Position numbers and translations under genes: made by a program. Positions 21,987-42,132 of a DNA stretch of 44,685 bases are shown here, one piece after another. The stretch covers positions 1-44,685 of the forward strand of contig CAIVZM010000006.1 in the NCBI GenBank assembly GCA_903910385.1, given 5' to 3'. A model generated the notes under the pieces. The model searched no databases. It saw only the letters and a list, made by a program, of their open reading frames with translations, and was not told where the DNA came from. Numbering within the stretch: the first letter of the stretch is position 1; every line of letters starts with the position of its first letter. The stretch is from an uncultured Armatimonadota bacterium (lineage in GTDB: Bacteria; Armatimonadota; Armatimonadia; Armatimonadales; Armatimonadaceae).

Positions 21987-23102
21987 ATGCCACGTAAAAA
22001 ACAACCAAAGGTTTGGAGTGCCGAGCAGCATACACTGGCAAAAATTGCTATGTTAAGCGACTATCTGCAACGATGGTTTCAGATTTTTGGTATTGCCTCA
22101 AAAGGCGAGAACTTGGTTTATATAGATGGCTTTGCTGGCCCCGGAGAGTATACGAATAGCCCGCATGGGTCACCATTGAAGGCGGTGATTGCCGCAAAAA
22201 CAGCACGTGCGGATAGCCGAACTAGTTGGAATGCTGGCGTTATTCATTGTGTGTTCATCGAAGCGGATGAGGAACGATTCGAACATCTTAGTGAGCGGAT
22301 GAAGCCCTTTTCAGGAACACCTGAAGTACAAATTCATTTGGTTCATGATCAGTTCGCCAATGGGATGATACGTCTAAAAGACCAAATGCCTGACCTGTTT
22401 CAGCAAACTTGCCCTAAGTTTTTTTTCATTGATCCGTTTGGTGCAAAGGGCGTCCCGTTCGCAACAGTTTCGGATATTTTGAGTAACCGCTTCACCGAGG
22501 TATTAATCAATTTAGATGCGGACGGAATAGCAAGAATTCTTCGGGCGAATACATCAGCGGTTTATGAGCGCCTCCTAACGGAGATTTTCGGGGATGATTC
22601 GTGGCGCAAAATCAGCCGCTCTTCGTCCTTTTCTCAGCAGTGTCGTGAAGTGTTAAATTTGTATAAAGGCAATTTACGCAAACACGCTCAATATATTTTT
22701 TCATTTGAGATGAAAACCTCCGAGAGTGCCCTCAATTATTTTCTTGTTTTCGCCAGTCAACACCCACGTGGTTTGGAAAAGATGAAGGAAGCCATGAAAA
22801 AAATTGACCAAGACGGTTCTTACCGCTTCTCCGATACAAGTGTCGGACAAACAATTATGTTTCGTGGCGATGATTCAAACTTATTCTCGAAGGCTATGAA
22901 AATGCATTTCGCGGGTAGGAAAGTTTCTTTTGAGGAGTTGCGAGATTTCGCGTTAAACGAAACGCCGTTCCTTAACCCCAAACAGATGCTTAAACAGTTA
23001 GAAGCTGACGGGTTTATCACCGTCGAATCTTCTGACCAACGACGGAAAGGGACATTCAACGAGGCCAAAATAAGGTCTATCGAATTTCGCCCAGAGACTT
23101 AA
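21987..23102 (+). CDS. tcmP: Three-Cys-motif partner protein TcmP
   Basis: A 371-residue protein matching the TcmP family, which is found next to a three-Cys-motif protein. Recognisable parts are [11 protein letters not shown] (45-55), a methyltransferase-like Gly-rich loop; [15 protein letters not shown] (about 87-101); [13 protein letters not shown] (145-157), comparable to a (D/N)PP(F/Y)-like acceptor motif; and a helical C-terminal domain. The family looks like a Rossmann methyltransferase, but its activity is not established. The partner gene begins two bases after the stop. Both genes are visibly more AT-rich than their neighbours, which suggests recent transfer. Confidence 0.85.
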
Positions 23103-23104
23103 TT

Positions 23105-23857
23105 ATGGCGACTAACTCACATATCGAATGGACTGAGATGACATGGAATCCGGTAACAGGTTGCACTAAAGTATCTCAGGGATGTAAAAACTGCTACGCA
23201 GAGCGTATGGCGAAGCGGCTACAAGCAATGGGTATGGATCGATATGCCAACGGGTTCAATGTCACTATGCATGAAGACCTGCTTGATTTGCCCTTTCAAT
23301 GGAAAAAGCCGCGACTGGTTTTTGTAAACTCTATGAGCGACTTGTTTCATCCACAGGTTCCTATTGAATTTATTGAGCGCGTATTCGATACGATGCGTCA
23401 GTGTCCGCAACACACGTTTCAAGTCCTAACGAAACGGAGTGAAAGGCTTCGAGAATTAGCGCCTCAATTACATTGGGCTAAAAATATTTGGATGGGAGTT
23501 TCGGTTGAAAACTCAGACGTGGTTCACCGTGTCTATGACCTACAATCCGTGAATGCAACCGTCCGCTTCTTATCGGTTGAACCTTTTATTGGTCCTATAG
23601 ACAGCTTGCCTCTTGAAGGAATTCACTGGGTAATTGTTGGAGGAGAATCAGGCCCAAAATCCCGCCCAATGCAAAAGGAATGGGTAGAATCCATTCATCA
23701 GCAGTGCCGCGACAATGATGTAGCCTTCTTCTTTAAACAGTGGGGAGGCGTGCGAAAAGACTTGACCGGGCGAGAATTAAACGGGCAGGTATACAATGAT
23801 ATGCCTCCTCGTACTAATATCCACCTTCAGCCAAAAATCTCACTTACAGTCGTATGA
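23105..23857 (+). CDS. Phage Gp37/Gp68 family (DUF5131) three-Cys-motif protein
   Basis: A 250-residue protein. [20 protein letters not shown] followed by [15 protein letters not shown] carries Cys20, Cys27 and Cys30 (C-x6-C-x2-C), suggestive of an iron-sulfur cluster in a radical-SAM-like barrel. [44 protein letters not shown] and [14 protein letters not shown] are family signatures. The family is common in phages and mobile elements. It is translationally coupled to TcmP (two-base gap, no separate ribosome site). The substrate is unknown; a nucleic-acid or nucleotide modification by the pair is an inference. Confidence 0.85.
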
Positions 23858-32116: not shown

Positions 32117-32161
32117 CGGAACGGGCGAATACCCTCACCGATGGTCTGATATAGACGGATG

Positions 32162-32199
32162 AGGCGGGCGTAGATGTTTCTGCGCCCGCCTTTCTTCTT
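32162..32199 (+). terminator. Intrinsic terminator
   Basis: AGGCGGGCG (32162-32170) pairs with CGCCCGCCT (32183-32191), followed by TTCTTCTT. It closes the isomerase transcript. Confidence 0.8.
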
Positions 32200-32265: not shown

Positions 32266-32287
32266 TTCTGTGATTGATATCACAGAA
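32266..32287. promoter_or_regulatory. CRP/FNR-type activator site
   Basis: TGTGATTGATATCACA (32269-32284) has the full TGTGA-N6-TCACA form of a CRP-family site, in a 9+9 perfect inverted repeat (32266-32287). Its centre is about 42 bases before the predicted start point, the class II activator position. The E. coli consensus is used only as a guide. Confidence 0.6.
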
Positions 32288-32306
32288 GGCGATGATCACA
32301 TACCTT

Positions 32307-32312
32307 TATAAT
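32307..32312 (+). promoter_or_regulatory. -10 element paired with the CRP-type site
   Basis: TATAAT, with no recognisable -35 hexamer (AGAAGG at that position). An absent -35 is expected if an activator bound at 32276 recruits polymerase. Confidence 0.55.
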
Positions 32313-32543
32313 CAGACCATAGGCGGATTTAGTTGACGCTTACAACTGTATGCCAGCAAAAGTGGCGAATATGTAGAGCCAGCGTAACTCCGGACAGAAA
32401 CGGGAAATGATATGCTATTCTGATTAATGACCGTATCGCCCTTCAGGGAAAAAGATATCTGAGGCGCATCCGAAATTCTGAGGAAAACTATCACTAATCC
32501 TAAGGACACGTCCCCAACCGAAAAGGCGAGCGCGACGCCTCCG

Positions 32544-33527
32544 GTGCAACCGGTAACCAAAAAGGGAGCGTTGAAGAATCGCGTCTGGCAACGTTTTTTG
32601 CTCGCGACGTTCAAGAGCATAACGGGTGGCATACAGCGTATAGACCGCACGAAAGCCCTGCGTCTGGGCGTCAATCTGGGGCGTATTGGCTATCGGGTAG
32701 ATCAACGACGACGTCAGTACGCGCTCAAAAATCTTCACCTCGCCTACGGGGATTCGCTGACACGAGCGGAACGTGAAACGCTGGCGCGTCAGGTTTTTGA
32801 GCGATGGGGGGAAAGTACGATTGATTTCCTTCGCATTCCTGCGCTGAGTCCCGCCGAGAGCGCTGAACTGGTCACTGCGGTGGAAGGGCGGGAGCATCTG
32901 GAGGCTGTCCGTTCGGATGGGCGCGGTTTTATCGTGGTAACCGGGCACCTGGGCAACTTCGAGTTTCTGGGGAGGTGGATGGCGGATCAGGGCGTACCCT
33001 CGACCGCTATTGTCCGCGAGCCTTCCGATCCCGCTTTCGCCGCCTATGTACGACAGATTCGGGAGTATGGCGGAAACGAAACGTTGAACCGGGGAACCTC
33101 GCCCCGCGAACTTCTCTCCCGTCTCCGCGCCGGTCGCGTCGTCACTCTGGGAATAGATCAGAACGCAACCGAGAGCTTCATTCCGTTTTTCAACGTCCCG
33201 GTCGGAACGGTGACCGGTCCCGCCGTTCTGGCGTTTCGCACCGGAGTCGCTCTCTTACCGGCATACTGTGTCCGCGAGCCGGATAATTCGTATAGGATTA
33301 TATTCGACACCCCTATCGAACCGGCGACAAAAGAAGATCGGGACGCCGAAATCCTGCGTCTCACCCACGCCGCCAGCGACTCTCTGGAACGCATGGTACG
33401 CCGTTTCCCGGATCAGTGGCTCTGGCTCCATAATCGGTGGAAATCAGCATTCGACCCGCGAAACCGGGAGCGCTGGCCCGAGGATTATAACTATGAGGAG
33501 TTACGTTCACGATGGGAAGGAAAGTAA
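32544..33527 (+). CDS. LpxL/HtrB-type lysophospholipid acyltransferase
   Basis: A 327-residue membrane-associated acyltransferase of the lipid A biosynthesis (LABLAT) family, which adds a secondary acyl chain to lipid A or a related lipid. VVTGHLGNFEFLG (about 131) contains the HX4E catalytic motif. TLGIDQNATESFIPFFN (about 199), GTVTGPAVLAFRTGVALLPAY and QWLWLHNRWKSAF (about 290) are family motifs. The start is uncertain: GTG 32544 lacks a ribosome site, and the frame is open back to a TGA at 32460. ATC 32490 has a good GAGG upstream but is an unusual start. It lies upstream of two fatty-acid-modifying genes. Confidence 0.82.
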   Translation: MQPVTKKGALKNRVWQRFLLATFKSITGGIQRIDRTKALRLGVNLGRIGYRVDQRRRQYALKNLHLAYGDSLTRAERETLARQVFERWGESTIDFLRIPALSPAESAELVTAVEGREHLEAVRSDGRGFIVVTGHLGNFEFLGRWMADQGVPSTAIVREPSDPAFAAYVRQIREYGGNETLNRGTSPRELLSRLRAGRVVTLGIDQNATESFIPFFNVPVGTVTGPAVLAFRTGVALLPAYCVREPDNSYRIIFDTPIEPATKEDRDAEILRLTHAASDSLERMVRRFPDQWLWLHNRWKSAFDPRNRERWPEDYNYEELRSRWEGK

Positions 33528-33806
33528 ATTATCGCCATAATCACGGTAATTAAGAAAAGTGTAAAAGGCAAATCAATGCCCTATATCCATCAATTTCCGT
33601 CTCTGCTTTGATGTTTAAAAAGCGCCGTCCTCGCCATACTGGTCGGAACGCGATAGAATCCCTATACATTTCTCAGGAATCTTTTTACGTCAGGGCTATG
33701 CGGCGACAACCTATCTGACCTCTGCGTTCCATTATTCCTGCGACCCGCCCGGCGAAAAATCCTGCGGCGCGGGCCGTTCGTCAGGGAAAATAAGAGGCTC
33801 TTTACT

Positions 33807-34703
33807 ATGTCGGGAAAGCGGGGCGTCGAATTTACGCCCGACAAACAATTTTATCAATCCTATTCCACCGAAGAAGATAAATCTCGTACCAATACGCACT
33901 ACGAACAGCCGGTCGCATTTTTTAATGCCGTCACCGGGGGACGCTGGAATGTCTACTCCTGCAACCTGTGGGATGATACGGATGACCAGACTGCCAGTCA
34001 GGAAGCGAAATTAGACCTGATGGCGAGTCTGATGAACCTGCAGCCCGGTCAGAGGATTCTGGATGTCGGTTGCGGATGGGGCGGACCGTTGACTTACCTC
34101 TGCAAAAAGTACAATGTAGAAGGCGTCGGTCTTACACTGTCACCCTCGCAACGTGTTTTCGCTCAGGAACGCGCCGACCGTGAAGGCATCCGGGCGGAAA
34201 TTATCGAATGCCACTGGCGCGACTATACCGATGATCGCGGTTTCGATATTGTCTACACAGATGAAGTCATCGTTCATTTCAATGATCTGGGCGGATTTTT
34301 CCAGAAAGCGTTCGACATCCTCAAAGATGGCGGTCGCATGGTCAACAAGGAACTGCATTACACCCATTCCCGTTACAGCGAGATGACACGCGGTCTGTCG
34401 CATATCAACGAGATCTATGGTTCAACCGGGAACTACCGAACCCTTGCCGACGAACTCGGTCTGTCGAACGCCGCAGGGTTTGAGGTGCAGACGATCCATC
34501 AGATTCCGCTGGCGCAATATCGCCGGACAATGTCGCAGTGGATGAGTAACATGAAGTCTAATCGGGCGGAACTGGAAGCGCTAGTCGGCCCGGAATACTT
34601 CAAGCGCTTCCTGATGTATCTCAAAATCTGCCACCGCATTTTTTACACGCAAACGATGACAATGGATATCATTGTTTCGCATAAGGCAGCCACTTCTGCC
34701 TGA
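33807..34703 (+). CDS. Cyclopropane-fatty-acid-synthase-like methyltransferase
   Basis: A 298-residue SAM-dependent enzyme of the mycolic acid/cyclopropane synthase family. FYQSYSTEEDK and FFNAVTGGRWNVYSCNLW match the family N-terminus. Motif I is RILDVGCGWGGPLTY (83-97), followed by GVGLTLSPSQR. FDIVYTDEVIVHFNDLGGFFQKAFDILKDGGRMV is the middle segment. Where classical CFA synthases have a bicarbonate-binding Glu near this point, the Glu in TDEVIVHF may serve. It could add a methylene bridge or a methyl branch to an unsaturated lipid. GAGG lies about 9 bases before the ATG. The desaturase gene follows after 41 bases. Confidence 0.82.
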   Translation: MSGKRGVEFTPDKQFYQSYSTEEDKSRTNTHYEQPVAFFNAVTGGRWNVYSCNLWDDTDDQTASQEAKLDLMASLMNLQPGQRILDVGCGWGGPLTYLCKKYNVEGVGLTLSPSQRVFAQERADREGIRAEIIECHWRDYTDDRGFDIVYTDEVIVHFNDLGGFFQKAFDILKDGGRMVNKELHYTHSRYSEMTRGLSHINEIYGSTGNYRTLADELGLSNAAGFEVQTIHQIPLAQYRRTMSQWMSNMKSNRAELEALVGPEYFKRFLMYLKICHRIFYTQTMTMDIIVSHKAATSA

Positions 34704-34744
34704 GCTCGCAGTAGTCCGAATTCGGAAAATGATCGGAGAGAACT

Positions 34745-35629
34745 ATGAGCGCGGGACGTAGCGTCGCCTCGCAGATTGAGGATATTTTTCACGACAACTG
34801 CCTTCGTTTTTTTCAAAATGCGGAGGCGAAACGTCGATGGAGCATTGAACGCGATATCAACTGGAACGGGGTCAATCCGGAATCTTCGGAACTGACCGCT
34901 CTGATCGTCCAGTTTTTTTCCGCTGTCGAAATGTATCTGCCGGATTATACCGCTAAGATGATGCAGATGATTCGACATTCCCGGGGACGCGCCTGGTTCC
35001 ATATGAACTGGGGCTATGAGGAATCCAAGCATAGCATAGTCCTCGAAGACTGGCTGATCCGATCTGGGAAACGGACTGTGGAGCAGGTGCGCGCTTTTGA
35101 AAACACTCTCCTGACCGGCGAGCAGTGGGAATTACCTTTCGATCATCCGAGGCAGATGCTGATCTATACGATGATTCAGGAACTGGCAACCGGTCTAAAT
35201 TATACGAATCTGCGCCGCCGCGCTCAGGATGAAGGCGATATGGCATTATCCAGTCTGCTCCGATGGGTCGCCGCCGATGAATCCGCGCACTACAATTTTT
35301 ACCGCAAGGGCGTAAAAGTCTATCTTCAACTGGAACCGGAAGAAACGATTGCGGATATCAAGTATGTCTTCGATAACTTCGCGATGCCGGCACGGACGCT
35401 CATTCCAGGTTTCGATGAATGTAGCAAAGCCATCGATGCCGCCGGAATCTATGGTCCTCGTATGTTTCTCCAGCGTGTCCGTCACCCGATTTTAGAAGAC
35501 CTTGGCATCACACGGCAACAGTTGAAAACTGTCGGACTCAATGAAAAGGAAGCGGATATCATCGCGGATCACGCTGACTACAGGGCAGACCTTGCCCGAC
35601 TGGCAATCTATCGCCGTAGCTATTTTTAG
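34745..35629 (+). CDS. Acyl-ACP desaturase (soluble diiron)
   Basis: A 294-residue soluble fatty acid desaturase (FA_desaturase_2), which makes a double bond in acyl-ACP using oxygen and a diiron centre. The ligand set is complete: Glu62 in VEMYLPDY, ExxH in EESKH (93-96), Glu146 in MIQELATG, and ExxH in DESAH (179-182). This matches plant and actinobacterial acyl-ACP desaturases. GAGAGAACT precedes the ATG. It directly follows the CFA-synthase-like gene, so the product of this enzyme is a natural substrate for that one. It ends before the convergent RND gene. Confidence 0.88.
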   Translation: MSAGRSVASQIEDIFHDNCLRFFQNAEAKRRWSIERDINWNGVNPESSELTALIVQFFSAVEMYLPDYTAKMMQMIRHSRGRAWFHMNWGYEESKHSIVLEDWLIRSGKRTVEQVRAFENTLLTGEQWELPFDHPRQMLIYTMIQELATGLNYTNLRRRAQDEGDMALSSLLRWVAADESAHYNFYRKGVKVYLQLEPEETIADIKYVFDNFAMPARTLIPGFDECSKAIDAAGIYGPRMFLQRVRHPILEDLGITRQQLKTVGLNEKEADIIADHADYRADLARLAIYRRSYF

Positions 35630-35711: not shown

Positions 35712-38700
35712 TCACAATGCGGTTGGGATATTGACAACGCTTCGTCGATCACTTTCCCGTCGTTCTCTCGTTCCGGCAAGGACGGCATAGACGGAAGGAA
35801 CGACGATTAGAGTCAGAACAAGTGACCCTAATAAACCAGCAATCAACGCCCATGCCATCGGCGGCCAGAGATTGCCCCCATTCACCGCCTGCGGAATCAG
35901 GCCGCCGATACTCAATACAACGGTCAGCAGGATCGGGCGCAGACGTAACCTTCCCGCTTCAACGAGCGCATCGGCAAGGGGAAGTCCCTTTCTTTGTTCC
36001 TCCAAAGCGTACTCGAAGAGAACGATGGCATGATTGGTGACGACGCCCCCCAGAGAGATAATCCCGACAAACGCCATAAATCCAAACGGTTGATTCGCCA
36101 TGAACAGGCCGGCAATCGCTCCGGTGATGCCGAAGGGAACCGCCGCCATAACAGTCCATGCCACTTTGAAAGAATTGAACTCCCATACGACAATCGCCAG
36201 GTTCGCCGCCAGCGAGAGCATCAGAATGAACACCAGTTCCACGAACGATTTCCCAACTTCTTCCGCTTCGCCGCCGTAGCCAGCCGAAACCCCTGACGGC
36301 ATTTTGAGACCGACGATGCGCTTCTGGACATCGGACAAAATAGCGGATGGTAACCGGGAACCATCGCTGAAGGCAGAGACGGTCAGGGTGCGAACGCCGT
36401 TGCGACGGACAATGCGGACGGATTGACCTTCCAGAGAGACACGCGCCACCTGACGCAAGGCGGTAGCGATTCCGCTGGGAGACGGAAGATAGAGATCGAG
36501 TAAGTCACCGGGTTTGGTGCGTTCCTCCGCACTTAGACGCAAATCAATCGGGATTTCCCGGTCGCCTTCGCGGAGTAAAGCGGCAGTCTGCCCCGAAAAG
36601 GCGAGATTCGCAAACTGGGCGACGCTTTGCGGCGATAACCCCAGAGCGGCGGCGCGATCCGTATCGACATCCACCTTCAAACGCAACGACATTTCGCCGT
36701 AGTTATCATGGACAGAAGCCGCTCCCGGCGTTTCGTTCAGGATAGCCTTGATATCGGCGGCGGCGCGACGCAGATCAGTGATATTGTCCCCGATCAATCT
36801 TACTGCAATGGGAGCGCCGACGGGCGGACCTTGCTCCAGAATGCGAGCGGTTACACGCGCCTCGGCAATAGTCGCATTCGCCTCTTTTTGAACGGCGGCG
36901 GTGAGTCGTTTGGTTGCGGCGATACTTTCCGTATTTACGATGATTTGTGCATAGTTGGCGGTCGGTGGTTCCGGGTTGATGTTGTAGTAAAATCGCGGCC
37001 CGCCCCGCCCGATATGGGTCACGAAGTTACGAACCCCTTCCTTCGATGCGATGATACGTTCCACACGGGTAGCCACCTCGCCGGTCGCTTTGATGTCACG
37101 CCCCTCCGGCAGCCAGACATCAACTGTAAATTGGTCACGCTCCGCCAGAGGGAAGAACTGTGAACCGAGACGCCCGATATTACCGAAGGCGAACGCCATG
37201 ACAGCAACCGCCACGGTCACCGTAATAAAGGGTCGACGTAGTCCACGTTGCGCCACACTCGAAAAGAAGGCGCGGAGTCCGTCGATAAATTTACCCATTC
37301 CCCGCTGAACAAAACCGGTTTTTTCCGGGTGTCCCGGTCGCAGGAAAGCGATTGCCAGAAGCGGCGTCACCGTGACATTCAAAATGACGGAGACAATGGT
37401 CGAGAGTGAGGTGACAATGCCGAGGTCTTTGACAAATTCTCCCACCCCGCCGGAAAGGAACATCAGAGGGGCGAAAGACGCGATGGTCGTCAGATTGGAG
37501 GTAATGAGCGGAACCAATAACTGGTTCACGCCCGCTATCGCCGCTGTTTCGGCATCAAGTCCTTCCGTCATTTTCTTTTCGATATTGTCAATGACAACAA
37601 TCGAGTTATCCACCACCAGTCCCAGGGCTATAATCAGGGCGGCGATGCTCATCTGTTGGATATCGCGACCCGCCGCCATCATCGCCGCAAAAGTCCCCAG
37701 AATCGTGATCGGGAGCATCGCTCCCACGATAAGCGCAGATCGCAATCCCATAAAAAGGAACATTACCGCAAAAATCAGGGCGATCCCGGCGCCGAGGTTT
37801 TCAAAAAACTCGCCCATTCGTCGCTTGACCGAACGGGGCAGATCATTGACAGCGGTTATCCGGACACTGTCCGGTAATTCCTTCCGCAGCGGAGCTAACT
37901 CTTGCTCAACAGCGACACCCATATCGCTGATGTTGCCGCCTTTTCGCAGAGTGACCGTAACTCCCACCGCAGGCTCCCCATTAACACGCATTACATACGG
38001 AGAAGGATCTTTGTAGCCCCGTGAGACGCTCGCAACATCGCGCAGGTACACCGGTTGTCCGTTGATTCCTTGACCAATGACCAGCGGCGACAAATCCGTT
38101 TCGGTACGTAATTCATTTGTGGGTTCGATGGTCAATCGCGTCGCTCCCACGGAAAGAGAACCGCCTGACTGCGGCAAGACATTCGCACGAGCGATCGCCT
38201 CCGCAACCTGCGCGGCGCTGACACCCATCTGAGCAAGCCGGGTCGCGGACAGGGACACCGTAATGACTTCCTGTTGTTCCCCGATCAGTTTCGCCTCACT
38301 GATATCGGAAAGGCGCTGGAGACGAGCGCGCAACTTCTTGGCAATATCTTCCCTATCACGATCGCTCGCGCCAATTTTCGATACTGCAAACACCATCGCC
38401 GCCGTATCGGAGAAGCAATCATTGACGATAACGGAGGTCACTCCGGCAGGGAGATCGCCGCGCAGATCGTCCGCACGGTTACGGATATCTTTCATCATCT
38501 TCGGCAAATCGCGGGCTTTGTCCGCCGCCTGAAACTCGACGACGGAAAGTCCCGGTCGGGAGACACTGGTTACCGTTCCGACGGCGTCCACCTCCCGGAT
38601 CGTTCGTTCCAATCGGTCGGTCACCAGTTGTTCCACTTGCGCCGCACTCGCTCCGGGATAGATTGCTACTACCTGAGCGAATCTGGCGGATAAATCCGGA

Positions 38701-38810
38701 TCTTCTCGACGCGGCAGGGCGAACAGGGCATAGATTCCGGTCGCCATCAGAACGATAGTCAATAAATAGGTTAGTGGACGATACTGTAAAGCGGCCTGAG
38801 TCGGCGTCAT
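35712..38810 (-). CDS. RND-family efflux permease
   Basis: A 1,032-residue inner-membrane pump of the HAE1/AcrB type, driven by protons. It has twelve expected transmembrane helices with two large periplasmic loops. IIALGLVVDNSIVVIDNIEKKM near residue 400 is TM4: the first relay Asp is kept and the second is Asn, a variant known in this subfamily. GFMAFVGIISLGGVVTNHAIVLFEYALEEQRKG near 920 is the TM10-11 motif. GAGGA lies 7 bases before the ATG. The membrane-fusion gene lies 50 bases upstream, so they form one operon. An outer-membrane TolC-like partner is not in the window. Confidence 0.93.
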   Translation of the reverse strand: MTPTQAALQYRPLTYLLTIVLMATGIYALFALPRREDPDLSARFAQVVAIYPGASAAQVEQLVTDRLERTIREVDAVGTVTSVSRPGLSVVEFQAADKARDLPKMMKDIRNRADDLRGDLPAGVTSVIVNDCFSDTAAMVFAVSKIGASDRDREDIAKKLRARLQRLSDISEAKLIGEQQEVITVSLSATRLAQMGVSAAQVAEAIARANVLPQSGGSLSVGATRLTIEPTNELRTETDLSPLVIGQGINGQPVYLRDVASVSRGYKDPSPYVMRVNGEPAVGVTVTLRKGGNISDMGVAVEQELAPLRKELPDSVRITAVNDLPRSVKRRMGEFFENLGAGIALIFAVMFLFMGLRSALIVGAMLPITILGTFAAMMAAGRDIQQMSIAALIIALGLVVDNSIVVIDNIEKKMTEGLDAETAAIAGVNQLLVPLITSNLTTIASFAPLMFLSGGVGEFVKDLGIVTSLSTIVSVILNVTVTPLLAIAFLRPGHPEKTGFVQRGMGKFIDGLRAFFSSVAQRGLRRPFITVTVAVAVMAFAFGNIGRLGSQFFPLAERDQFTVDVWLPEGRDIKATGEVATRVERIIASKEGVRNFVTHIGRGGPRFYYNINPEPPTANYAQIIVNTESIAATKRLTAAVQKEANATIAEARVTARILEQGPPVGAPIAVRLIGDNITDLRRAAADIKAILNETPGAASVHDNYGEMSLRLKVDVDTDRAAALGLSPQSVAQFANLAFSGQTAALLREGDREIPIDLRLSAEERTKPGDLLDLYLPSPSGIATALRQVARVSLEGQSVRIVRRNGVRTLTVSAFSDGSRLPSAILSDVQKRIVGLKMPSGVSAGYGGEAEEVGKSFVELVFILMLSLAANLAIVVWEFNSFKVAWTVMAAVPFGITGAIAGLFMANQPFGFMAFVGIISLGGVVTNHAIVLFEYALEEQRKGLPLADALVEAGRLRLRPILLTVVLSIGGLIPQAVNGGNLWPPMAWALIAGLLGSLVLTLIVVPSVYAVLAGTRERRESDRRSVVNIPTAL

Positions 38811-38860
38811 GGTTATTTCCTCAGCAGAATCGAAAGAAAATCAACAGCGTACGCCACTCT

Positions 38861-40468
38861 TTAGGGGCGATCTGTTGCTGTAGCCAGCCGGATTTTTGCG
38901 CCGCCGGTAAGCCGTTGCGGTGTTTTAGCGATCACTTCGCCGGAAGTCAGACCGCTGACAATCTCGACGGCATCGGTTCCAGCAGGAGCGCCAATGGTCA
39001 CAGCGCGACGGACGGCGACGCCATCTTTTAGCGCGATGACATAACTTCCCACCTCATCCGAAGCTACTGAAGAAAGCGGCGCCACCACAATATCCTTCCG
39101 GGGCGCTTCCGCCAGAGAAAGTCGGGCGACCATACCGGGCAACAGAATCTCTCCTGCATTTGACACGGTAATTTCCACCGGGAATGTCCGGCTCCGACTG
39201 TCAGCCTCATAACCGATAGTACGGACTCTTCCCAAAAACGTTTTGCCACGGACGGCGTCAGCGGATATGGAAATAGCCTTTCCTTCCTGCAACAGAACGC
39301 GGGACGCTTCCGGAACAGCGAATACCGCTTTTACCTGACGGATATCGCCGATTTTGAGCACAGGGGAACCGGGGGAAGTCATTTCGCCGACCTCGACGCG
39401 CGTTTCCAGAATCCGAGCGGGAAAAGGAGCGTGGATGACATGCTTGCCCAGAGCGATTCGGGCGGCGCGAACGGCGGCGGCGGACTGCTCCTCCTGCGCT
39501 TTAAGAGCGGCGATCTGCTCCTGAATCGATGCCAGCCGTGCAGGTCGTGAAGCGGCGCTCAGGACGGCGGCGCGCGCCGACTCGGTCTGAGCGGTGGCAG
39601 CGGCTATATCTTCCTGACGCGCCCCCTCACGAGCAAGCGATACCGCCTGCTCCGCCGATTCCCGGCGCGAGATCGCCACATCCAGAACCGCCTGCCGTTG
39701 ATCCAGAACCTGCCGTGCGACCGCCCCCTGATCTACCAAACGGCGATACCGTTCCGCTTCAATTCGGGCGAGATTTTCGTCGGTCTGCGCCTGTTTCAGG
39801 GAGGATTCCGCCTGACGCAATTCCTGATCCCGGGTAGCGGAGCGGGTCTTCTTTTCGCCCGCCTGCGCCTGACTCAGTTGCGCTTTCGCCTGTTCCTGAG
39901 CGGCTTGAGTCTCGGTGGCGATTCTGCCATAATCCTGTTGAAGCTGTCGTAATGCGGCGCTTGCCTGTGACTGTGCAGCGATCGCTTGATCCTGAGTCGC
40001 TCGCGCCGACGCATCGTCCATCACAACCAATGCCCCGCCCATCGGGACGGCGTCTCCTCGTTGCACCGGACGCGATACAACGCGAGCGGAGACTTCCGCA
40101 GCGATCATCGCCACCGCAACCGGTTCGATCTGTCCGGAGATTATCACTGAACCGCCACCCCGTGCTGCGACGACAGGAACTCCCTCCGCCAGCAGAACAG
40201 GTCTGGAGTCTCCAGATGAATTGACGGAGGAGTCGGCGGATTTCGGAACGCCGCCATTTGCCCTTATTCGGACATCCTTACTCTCAGGAGTTCCGTTCAT
40301 TCCCAGTGATTGCCAGAATTCCAGATTCGGCAGAAAATACATACCGACAAAAAACATTGCAATAGTAGCGATAATTACCACCAGAGTTGCGCGCCCGACA
40401 CTACGAGAGCGACGAGAGGGAGCGGTTGCCATTTCTGTATTGTTCGTTTCTGTTTTTGTCATATCCAT
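38861..40468 (-). CDS. RND efflux membrane-fusion protein
   Basis: A 535-residue periplasmic adaptor linking the RND pump to an outer-membrane channel. A transmembrane anchor lies at about 27-48. The biotinyl-lipoyl domain (ARVVSRPVQRGDAVPMGGALVVMDD) is split by a very long alpha-hairpin at about 150-350, rich in Gln/Ala/Glu (QAQEQAKAQLSQAQAGEKKT), which makes the protein longer than the typical 380-400 residues. The beta-barrel is at about 380-460 (VKAVFAVPEASRVLLQEGKA). Three 18-bp repeats run into the start codon. The gene is between tetR and the permease gene. Confidence 0.9.
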   Translation of the reverse strand: MDMTKTETNNTEMATAPSRRSRSVGRATLVVIIATIAMFFVGMYFLPNLEFWQSLGMNGTPESKDVRIRANGGVPKSADSSVNSSGDSRPVLLAEGVPVVAARGGGSVIISGQIEPVAVAMIAAEVSARVVSRPVQRGDAVPMGGALVVMDDASARATQDQAIAAQSQASAALRQLQQDYGRIATETQAAQEQAKAQLSQAQAGEKKTRSATRDQELRQAESSLKQAQTDENLARIEAERYRRLVDQGAVARQVLDQRQAVLDVAISRRESAEQAVSLAREGARQEDIAAATAQTESARAAVLSAASRPARLASIQEQIAALKAQEEQSAAAVRAARIALGKHVIHAPFPARILETRVEVGEMTSPGSPVLKIGDIRQVKAVFAVPEASRVLLQEGKAISISADAVRGKTFLGRVRTIGYEADSRSRTFPVEITVSNAGEILLPGMVARLSLAEAPRKDIVVAPLSSVASDEVGSYVIALKDGVAVRRAVTIGAPAGTDAVEIVSGLTSGEVIAKTPQRLTGGAKIRLATATDRP

Positions 40469-40521
40469 TTGTCGTACCCTGCCGTTTTGTCGTACCCTGC
40501 CGTTTTGTCGTACCCTGCCGT
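40468..40521 (-). repeat. Three tandem 18-bp repeats covering the ribosome site of the fusion protein gene
   Basis: The unit ACGGCAGGGTACGACAAA (minus strand) occurs three times in succession, at 40521-40504, 40503-40486 and 40485-40468, with the last A belonging to the start ATG. Each unit contains GGCAGGG, a usable Shine-Dalgarno-like core, so the gene has three tandem candidate ribosome sites. Confidence 0.85.
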
Positions 40522-40575
40522 TGACGGCTTATTTCCAAAACGATTTCTCCGGGCGATTCGATTATTACGATGTTT

Positions 40576-40594
40576 ATATTAAGTACACTGTTAA
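40576..40594. promoter_or_regulatory. Candidate TetR site upstream of the pump genes
   Basis: On the minus strand TTAACAGTGTACTTAATAT matches the site at 41283 in 12 of 19 positions, including TNACAGTGT. It lies about 110 bases before the fusion-protein start. Confidence 0.4.
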
Positions 40595-40609
40595 CTTACA
40601 GAACACATA

Positions 40610-40636
40610 AAAGGACGCTCTTGGGAACGTCCCTTT
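40610..40636 (-). terminator. Hairpin at the end of tetR
   Basis: AAAGGACG (40610-40617) pairs with CGTCCCTTT (40628-40636) with one bulge. On the minus strand it overlaps the tetR stop and ends in TTTTATG. It may end or reduce read-through from tetR into the pump genes. Confidence 0.5.
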
Positions 40637-41273
40637 AGTTGGAGTTCGTGGGCGCAGGCGCTGTCAGACCGCGTATCGATAGCTCCAGCAAGTTGTCGTA
40701 AAAAGCCTGATGAAGCTCCTGCGGCAACATACCCAACCTGCCGGACAGCGTGAGTGAAGCCGCGCCATGCACGCCCGCCCAGATGCTATGCGTCAATACC
40801 AGAGGATGAGCGCTCGGAGTAATGATTCGCTGATCGATTCCCTCCAGTATGCAACGCATCATAAAACTGAAGCAACGGTATCCCGCCGACTCCGTTTTTT
40901 TTGCCATGTCCATCTCAAGAGCATTGTCCTGCATCTCAAACATAATGACATAGTACTGAGGTTGCTGCTTGGCGAATTGGATATAGCGAAACCCGCCTTC
41001 GCGCAATCGCTCCACCGGATCTTCGATGGAATTCACTCCTTCAAGACACGCCGCCATCAGCAAGAAACCTTCATCGCAGAGCGCCTTCAAGATTTCGGAC
41101 TTGTCCTGAAAATGGAGATAGATAGTAGTGGGTGAGTATTCGATTTTCTCCGCAATTTTCCGCATCGAGACATTGTCATATCCTTCGGAAATGAACAGTT
41201 CCCGCGCCGCATCCAGAATGGCGCGTCGCAGGTTTTCTTTTTCTCTTTGTCTTCGCTGTTGCGTTGGAGTCAT
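40635..41273 (-). CDS. TetR-family transcriptional regulator
   Basis: A 212-residue regulator starting at ATG 41273 (a GTG at 41276 is also in frame). The N-terminal helix-turn-helix is clear: LRRAILDAARELFISEGYDNVSMRKIAEKIEYSPTTIYLHFQDKSEILKAL (about 14-64). The C-terminal ligand domain (TetR_C, about 75-200) includes YYVIMFEMQDNALEMD and HSIWAGVHGAASLTLSGRLG. It lies upstream of the RND operon on the same strand, as in many self-regulated pump operons. No ribosome site is evident, and the predicted leader is only about 15 bases. Confidence 0.9.
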   Translation of the reverse strand: MTPTQQRRQREKENLRRAILDAARELFISEGYDNVSMRKIAEKIEYSPTTIYLHFQDKSEILKALCDEGFLLMAACLEGVNSIEDPVERLREGGFRYIQFAKQQPQYYVIMFEMQDNALEMDMAKKTESAGYRCFSFMMRCILEGIDQRIITPSAHPLVLTHSIWAGVHGAASLTLSGRLGMLPQELHQAFYDNLLELSIRGLTAPAPTNSN

Positions 41274-41282
41274 CACTTTTAC

Positions 41283-41457: not shown

Positions 41458-42132
41458 ATGTGGGAGAATCTGGCAGTAAGAGAAGGGACGGTATGCATTG
41501 CGGCGTTTTTTCTGGGAGCGATTCCTTTCGGATTGATTGCGGGAAAACTACGCGGCGTCGATCTTCGTCAACGCGGTTCTGGCAATATCGGGGCGACGAA
41601 TGCGCTCCGTGAACTGGGCGTTCCGATTGGAGTCACGGTTTTCCTGCTGGATGGGTTGAAAGGGCTACTACCTGTACTTGCCGCCCGCTGGCTTGATCTG
41701 CCGTCCTGGTGGGTCGTCGGCGCCGGGCTATGCGCGGCATTGGGGCATATATTTTCGCCCTTCATCAGGTTTAAAGGCGGTAAGGGAGTCGCAACCAGTC
41801 TGGGCGTTTTGATCGGTCTTTCGCCGCTGGTGGCGGGCATTTCATTCGGAGTGTTTCTGGTCGCTGTCTTCCTCACCCGCTACATCAGCCTGGGTTCGAT
41901 TCTGGGCGCCGCGACGCAGATGGGGTTGTTTGTCCTTCTTCCTGCTATCTATCTGACGGGTAACCCTTTGCCGTATCGAATTTTTGGCGCGGTTGCAGGG
42001 TTGCTGGTCATATGGCGGCATCAGACCAATATCAAGCGCCTTCTTGCGGGTACAGAAAGCAAGTTCGGGAAAAAAGCGACCCCTGCGCCGACTTCTCCTT
42101 CCCCTACCCCGGCAGGGGGAGAAGAAGGGTAA
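41458..42132 (+). CDS. plsY: Glycerol-3-phosphate acyltransferase PlsY
   Basis: PlsY moves an acyl group from acyl-phosphate to glycerol-3-phosphate, the first step of phospholipid synthesis. The 224-residue inner-membrane protein has multiple transmembrane segments. The three signature loops are present: LRQRGSGNIGATNALRELG (about 37-55), HIFSPFIRFKGGKGVATSLG (about 97-116) and IWRHQTNIKRLLAGTESKFG (about 184-203). The C-terminal tail is Pro/Ser/Ala/Gly-rich and longer than usual. It converges with the large exported protein gene. plsX is not in the window. Confidence 0.95.
   Translation: MWENLAVREGTVCIAAFFLGAIPFGLIAGKLRGVDLRQRGSGNIGATNALRELGVPIGVTVFLLDGLKGLLPVLAARWLDLPSWWVVGAGLCAALGHIFSPFIRFKGGKGVATSLGVLIGLSPLVAGISFGVFLVAVFLTRYISLGSILGAATQMGLFVLLPAIYLTGNPLPYRIFGAVAGLLVIWRHQTNIKRLLAGTESKFGKKATPAPTSPSPTPAGGEEG

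Follow-up and report, generated by a model that had tools for sequence, protein, structure and literature searches.

What does a methyltransferase of the cyclopropane-synthase type make when its gene stands between a lipid acyltransferase and a desaturase? The question is raised by a 44,685-nucleotide (nt) stretch of DNA from an uncultured Armatimonadota bacterium (GenBank assembly GCA_903910385.1, contig CAIVZM010000006.1, positions 1 to 44,685; here called the window). Its list of open reading frames (ORFs) contains three on the + strand that span 32544-35629 and are referred to as LPX, MT and DES. The original prediction had described them as an LpxL-like acyltransferase, a cyclopropane fatty acid (CFA) synthase-like enzyme and an acyl carrier protein (acyl-ACP) desaturase. 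The genes and their families were confirmed, as the ORFs lie in the predicted interval and all score well over the Pfam cut-offs:

32544..33527, + strand: LPX, LpxL-like acyltransferase (PF03279), GTG start, 154 bits
33807..34703, + strand: MT, CMAS-domain methyltransferase (PF02353) of a separate clade without the bicarbonate-binding Glu and His, ATG start, 144 bits
34745..35629, + strand: DES, acyl-ACP-desaturase-like diiron protein (PF03405), ATG start, 97 bits

The gap between LPX and MT measures 279 nt and that between MT and DES 41 nt. Concerning the product, the residues of MT point away from a cyclopropane and towards a methyl branch.

In cyclopropane synthases, the bicarbonate ligands Glu, His and Tyr are described as strictly conserved and essential for formation of the ring (PMC9821293), and their mutation is reported to lower activity (PMC11387697). 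The ligands are given as E140, H167 and Y232 in CmaA1 and as E239, H266 and Y317 in the E. coli enzyme (PMC9821293, PMC11387697). MT and seven relatives, together the eight members of the MT clade, were aligned with 22 other CMAS proteins, namely those of 17 places found in the search of the window's phylum (the window's own not counted), two weak matches of a second group of genomes and three annotated CFA synthases from plasmids. The column of the bicarbonate Glu holds Val in seven members of the clade and Gly in one, while all 17 places of the phylum outside the window keep the Glu. At the column of the His, the clade has Lys (7) or Arg (1) and three of the other proteins have Gln. The Tyr is retained by all eight members and by all 21 others that have a residue at this position. 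In addition, the clade carries an invariant acidic pair, of which Asp152 occurs in none and Glu153 in six of the 22 other proteins. The codons concerned are:

34260..34265, + strand: codons of Asp152 and Glu153, invariant in the clade (8/8); Glu153 lies three residues before the lost bicarbonate Glu
34272..34274, + strand: codon of Val156, column of the bicarbonate-binding Glu (22/22 others, 0/8 here)
34347..34349, + strand: codon of Lys181, column of the bicarbonate-binding His (19/22 others, 0/8 here)

As two of the three bicarbonate ligands are absent from MT and its seven relatives, formation of a cyclopropane by MT appears unlikely and cyclopropane synthase was rejected as its likely function. 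The loss of the ligands weakens the ring proposed in the original prediction and favours the methyl branch that had been named there as the alternative. Two full-length CFA synthase-like proteins of the window's phylum (L089 and L090, from G036 and G060) show a further variation, with an extra Glu in the motif SIEMFEHV and Gln in place of the bicarbonate His; they are possibly another non-cyclopropane branch. Gln at the bicarbonate His was also seen in L099.

MT is a CMAS-domain protein. The domain scores 144 bits against a cut-off of 27, spans nearly the whole protein including the S-adenosylmethionine (SAM) motif, and leads the Pfam models by a wide margin, with 51 bits for the next one. The alignment with CMAS enzymes takes in the C-terminal part that holds the Tyr. 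The nearest solved structures are MmaA1 (E 2.6e-37), followed by UmaA, CmaA1, MmaA4 and bacterial CFA synthases. The profile of the clade also matches phosphoethanolamine N-methyltransferases (best E 7.7e-20), in the SAM-binding part only. The tree was built without the truncated L098 and without L099; in it, MT and its seven relatives group in one clade with a support of 100/100 and a stem of 4.09 changes per column, apart from 20 other CMAS proteins. The members of the clade are 28-34% identical to the best CFA synthase-type match among those examined. The motif of the clade reads YTDEVIVHF ... NKELH. The new element at this locus is the MT clade, a variant branch of CMAS. No description of it was found in the open-access literature searched with a few terms, and a useful literature link to branched lipids of Chloroflexota was looked for without result. 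An AlphaFold model of MT from a two-row alignment was too poor to be used (mean predicted local distance difference test score (pLDDT) of 44, predicted template modelling score (pTM) of 0.37).

The clade is rare and scattered. With the full MT protein, no match at E 1e-30 was obtained in 100 relatives. The profile of the eight members gave matches at this threshold in 17 of the phylum's 291 genomes, but only the window's own gene reached clade level (537 bits, next 162 bits). The window's genome holds no CMAS gene over the cut-off besides MT. Genomes of named species were scanned with six short patterns, which detect close relatives only, and gave one relative, at locus L008 (57% over the best segment). 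It lies on a contig of a metagenome-assembled genome (MAG) titled Chloroflexota, and this name is used here in the sense of the record title. A draw of 400 genomes from the phylum of L008's genome, that genome included, contained the clade in seven genomes (348-653 bits); weak matches of 127 bits in two further genomes belong to CFA synthase-type proteins of 444-458 amino acids (aa). Scoring in each genome was confined to the top candidates of an initial screen, up to five in the 400-genome draw and up to eight in the 291-genome search, and the absences hold within this procedure. On account of this patchy distribution, MT was probably gained by horizontal transfer. The G+C content of MT is 0.515, compared to 0.511 for DES and 0.552 for the window; it was dropped as evidence of transfer because DES, like MT slightly below the window in G+C, has native relatives. 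Plasmids gave 291 records of MT relatives, all with less than 60% identity, of which the 15 listed ones show 25-30% and are mostly annotated as CFA synthases. No MT relative was found in the viral contigs searched.

DES matches PF03405 over the diiron helices with 97 bits (cut-off 22.7). Its candidate diiron ligands E62, E93, H96, E146, E179 and H182 make up all six residues of the pattern E-(EExxH)-E-(ExxH). Five of them were aligned to the castor desaturase 1AFR, in which the corresponding residues are the ligands, and E62 was assigned by its invariant column and by its position where the Pfam match begins. DES thus shares with the castor delta-9-type acyl-ACP desaturases (PDB 1AFR, 7PP7) the ligand pattern and a Thr that follows the third Glu. 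It differs from them by its length of 294 aa compared to 331-363 aa of the matched solved chains, and the sequence match is weak (best E 2e-14). PF03405 occurs in 28 of 101 genomes in the draw of relatives and in 11 of 12 genomes of the window's family, its own included. The window's genome contains two copies that are 64% identical to each other. The nearest relatives of DES are 66-69% identical and belong to the same family, and in the tree DES falls inside a family clade of 12 rows (support 99/98) without a resolved exact sister. Owing to this family-wide occurrence and placement, DES is best regarded as a native desaturase paralogue. The second paralogue (G000:C33:97490-98104, locus L002) shares its stretch with a gene for a ketopantoate hydroxymethyltransferase.

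The coupling of the methyltransferase to a desaturase finds support in L008, which was fetched through MT alone and not through the desaturase. There, a PF03405 gene ends 52 nt before the ATG used for the methyltransferase, so that the order is reversed relative to the window. The L008 desaturase, its start cut by the contig end, has the same diiron ligands as DES; its identity amounts to 51-55% with seven desaturases of its group and to only 29% with DES. Because of the different desaturase subfamily and the reversed order, the two adjacencies look independent. A hand estimate that assumes ~1 PF03405 gene in each genome and a density of ~1 gene per kb puts the chance of one such adjacency among seven loci at ~0.001. 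PF03405 was found in three of the seven genomes with MT compared to 39 of the 393 others (~0.03 by hand), where two of the three, G133 and G142, are close kin. These two genomes have the methyltransferases nearest to the window's and a window-type desaturase (53%) elsewhere in the genome. The gene directly after the methyltransferase in L008 (1743-2819) encodes a diphosphomevalonate decarboxylase, which may be an isoprenoid link or chance. One desaturase locus of the window's phylum (L035) has a weak MT-like match (E 4e-6).

MT and DES may accordingly be seen as a two-gene acyl-modification unit that would add a methyl branch or a methylene group by desaturation, methylation and proton loss, with LPX as an optional participant. 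This proposal is tentative, a good possibility that stays short of probable. DES, as a soluble diiron acyl-ACP desaturase, would place a cis double bond in an acyl chain. MT would bind SAM and the unsaturated chain and move the methyl group to the double bond in the way of the CFA and mycolate methyltransferases. Without the residues that hold bicarbonate, the proton acceptor in cyclopropane synthases, the cation would have to be quenched otherwise, most simply by loss of a proton to an acid such as Glu153. The predicted product would then be a methyl-branched alkene or an exomethylene chain. LPX, an upstream acyltransferase of the lipid A type, may or may not share transcript and substrate with the pair; the sole hint that it might use such chains is the gene pair in G022 described below. 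All steps from substrate to product are modelled on the chemistry of the family. A further-reaching version is that MT founds an undescribed CMAS branch in at least two phyla, which would perform bicarbonate-free alkylation by means of the Asp-Glu pair, would have been coupled independently to two desaturase subfamilies and would make mid-chain methyl-branched or methylene lipids; this version is doubtful.

Several observations weigh against such a unit. The desaturase is absent from the other six of the seven MT loci in the draw from L008's phylum (fetched stretches 5.4-17 kb long, the contig of L022 stopping ~0.6 kb from the methyltransferase), and four of the seven genomes have no PF03405 match at all, wherefore the desaturase is not an obligatory partner. 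The sole supporting adjacency lies on a MAG contig whose end cuts the desaturase. G133 and G142 may count as one lineage, with methyltransferases 80% and desaturases 88% identical, and the related G177 carries a window-type desaturase while MT was not found there at the threshold applied. As window-type desaturases without MT also occur in the window's family, a strict co-occurrence of both genes was considered weak. The Cys of the active-site region near the Tyr is kept by five members of the MT clade and lost by three. UmaA, a near structural relative of MT, is described as yielding no additional fatty acid upon expression in E. coli (PMC5660069). Finally, the pair of an LPX-like gene and a CFA synthase gene in G022, presented below, speaks for a role of LPX outside this account.

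LPX itself finds its best PDB matches in phosphatidylinositol mannoside (PIM) acyltransferases, followed by a lipid A acyltransferase, and reaches no curated NCBIfam cut-off (best 139 bits compared to 248). The genome holds a second PF03279 gene. It also contains LpxC (276 bits), which makes a lipid A pathway likely. Homologues of LPX were detected in 29 of the 31 genomes searched, the own one included, and LPX is a general gene of the lineage; in its tree it falls within the family and the exact sister is not resolved. In G006, the homologue (48% by blastp) is followed after 18 nt by a cytidylyltransferase-like gene and then by a family 2 glycosyltransferase, a setting that would fit lipopolysaccharide synthesis.

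The trio of LPX, MT and DES was found nowhere else in the loci scanned. The loci derived from the searches extend ~1.5 kb in either direction and are shorter near contig ends, and the scans of the desaturase, MT/CMAS and later LPX loci used all ORFs of at least 60 aa; for the LPX loci of 12 relatives, neighbours are incompletely listed in four (L107, L109, L111, L135). LPX stood beside a desaturase in none of 29 desaturase loci of the phylum (that of the own paralogue and those of 28 other genomes, out of 34 matches beyond the window), in none of the 30 loci examined in the group of L008's phylum (of 45 matches), and beside MT or CMAS in none of nine loci of that group. The 30 LPX loci, namely that of the own paralogue plus 29 others, contain no DES homologue. 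The partial exception is G022 (L105), where an LPX-like gene lies on the same strand 82 nt behind a full-length CFA synthase. It is the only one of the 17 CMAS loci of the phylum outside the window's with such a gene, and the only one of the 30 LPX loci with a CMAS gene in reach. This pair (L145, 4565-6932), whose CMAS protein belongs to a different branch from MT, is possibly a CMAS-acyltransferase pair of its own. A conserved trio was therefore not found, but the G022 pair leaves a link between acyltransferase and CMAS genes possible. Unlinked occurrence of the genes in relatives, named in the original prediction as a refutation, applies for the most part to LPX and partly to MT and DES, with six of seven MT loci of the L008 group lacking a desaturase beside them.

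Upstream of LPX, three elements were found that could mark the beginning of a transcript:

32161..32192, + strand: terminator-like hairpin of 14 pairs, 3' of the preceding TIM-barrel gene, probable upstream border, weak alone
32269..32284, no strand: CRP-like palindrome TGTGA-N6-TCACA, exact, sole copy in the window
32307..32312, + strand: TATAAT, candidate -10 element 33 bp after the palindrome (centre to centre), seen in sequence only

The palindrome and the TATAAT are suggestive of a CRP-type promoter before LPX, and their spacing of 33 bp is a class II-like distance. The palindrome has eight copies in the genome compared to one of a reversed control pattern and ~3.3 expected from the base composition of the window. 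None of the scanned LPX loci of the 12 relatives contains the site in exact form. The gap between LPX and MT contains one weak promoter-like match (9/12 at 33631-33659), and no terminator-like sites were found when looked for in its 279 nt. Over the whole scanned region, promoter-like sites (5, with 3.5 expected) and terminator-like sites (3, with 3.5 expected in shuffles) occur at chance level. The elements of a candidate regulated promoter thus exist, which may or may not serve all three genes, given the mild enrichment of the palindrome and the length of the gap.

Convergent with DES, the window encodes a set of an RND efflux pump, a membrane-fusion protein and a TetR-type regulator (35712-41276, - strand), of which the TetR-type protein shows a weak likeness, below the cut-off, to the fatty-acid regulators FasR and FabR. 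A further lipid gene, the glycerol-3-phosphate acyltransferase PlsY (TIGR00023, 178 bits), follows 6 kb downstream (41458-42132, + strand). At 21987-23857 (+ strand), TcmP (TIGR04474, 193 bits) is followed after 2 nt by a DUF5131 or radical-SAM-mobile-pair-like gene (PF07505, 340 bits), and both match the PADLOC candidate defence models PDC-M30 and PDC-M41.

How do the explanations of the locus compare? According to the original prediction, DES sets the double bond, MT closes a cyclopropane and LPX loads the modified chain on lipid A. The families agree with this in name, lipid A is probable given LpxC, the genes share one strand behind a candidate promoter, and in G022 an LPX-like gene does stand behind an ordinary CFA synthase. 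With two of the three bicarbonate ligands gone from the whole MT clade and LPX beside neither MT nor a desaturase in the loci scanned, this pathway is nevertheless highly improbable. Lipid A acyltransferases normally take chains supplied as acyl-ACP, and the results give no sign that LPX prefers a modified chain. MT could also be a transferred gene of unrelated function, for instance methylating a small molecule or headgroup at N, O or C, that came to lie by chance between LPX and a spare desaturase paralogue. Six of the seven MT loci of the Chloroflexota group lack the desaturase, clade-level MT occurs in one of 291 genomes of the own phylum, the phosphoethanolamine N-methyltransferases are matched by the clade profile in the SAM-binding part, and the diphosphomevalonate decarboxylase follows the methyltransferase in L008, all of which agree with chance neighbours. 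The second adjacency in L008 with a desaturase of a different subfamily, the large lead of CMAS over the next Pfam model and the alignment of the Tyr-bearing C-terminal part with CMAS enzymes argue against them, and this explanation is unlikely, albeit one to be reckoned with.

A regulatory explanation would be compatible with the MT-DES unit: LPX, MT and DES as one CRP-type-regulated operon that remodels the acyl chains of the envelope in response to nutrition or stress, irrespective of the reaction that MT catalyses. It draws on the perfect palindrome with its TATAAT, on a terminator-like hairpin before the palindrome and none between LPX and MT, and on the close CMAS-acyltransferase adjacency in G022. 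The 279-nt gap after LPX, the mild over-representation of the palindrome and its absence in exact form from the scanned LPX loci of 12 relatives make such a regulated operon improbable, and the G022 pair, with a CFA synthase of another branch, stands alone among 17 CMAS and 30 LPX loci.

Known systems offer partial parallels to MT and DES. The M. tuberculosis enzymes MmaA1, MmaA4 (Hma) and UmaA consist, like MT, of a single CMAS domain without an N-terminal lipid-binding domain (287-318 aa). In the alignments, MmaA1 resembles MT in having Glu at the Glu153 column and a changed bicarbonate Glu (Asp), and it keeps the His. MmaA1 is reported to lead to a trans double bond with a vicinal methyl group. 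The precise role of MmaA1 is referred to as unsettled (PMC3245277). Non-cyclopropane products of such enzymes are described as hydroxylated chains for Hma and as a trans double bond with a vicinal methyl group credited to UmaA1; Hma/MmaA4 is stated to have Glu146 and Glu149 (PMC8708032), which from their spacing would correspond to the Glu153 and bicarbonate-Glu columns. MT differs from the mycolate methyltransferases in that it also lacks the His (Lys), possesses the invariant Asp-Glu pair and belongs to a clade found in other bacteria. With the bacterial CFA synthases (E. coli Cfa, PDB 6BQC; L. acidophilus, 5Z9O), MT shares the CMAS catalytic domain, the SAM motif and the Tyr ligand, but it has neither their N-terminal domain nor the bicarbonate Glu and His. 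The 'small CFAS' proteins are described as comprising groups with an intact, CmaA-like catalytic domain or without the Tyr ligand, with 280-320 aa and no N-terminal domain in the larger group, like MT (PMC11387697); in contrast to these groups, MT keeps the Tyr and lacks Glu and His. The 10-methylstearate pair BfaA/BfaB (TmsA/TmsB) likewise places a CMAS-type methyltransferase beside a second fatty-chain enzyme and yields the type of product favoured for MT, in which an unsaturated chain has gained a methylene or methyl branch. Its partner is presented as an FAD-binding (flavin adenine dinucleotide-binding) oxidoreductase thought to act after methylation (PMC5660069), whereas DES is a desaturase and would act before it. 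No FAD-binding reductase was found among the identified adjacent genes of the window (TIM-barrel protein, LPX, DES and RND pump).

A CMAS domain alone is easily misread as a cyclopropane fatty acid synthase, and the MT clade warns against inferring cyclopropane lipids from it. MT also provides a natural case for testing how one and the same SAM-olefin cation might be directed into a branch and not into a ring. If the proposed reading is true, a two-gene cassette that converts a saturated into a methyl-branched chain would be useful for the production of branched lipids.

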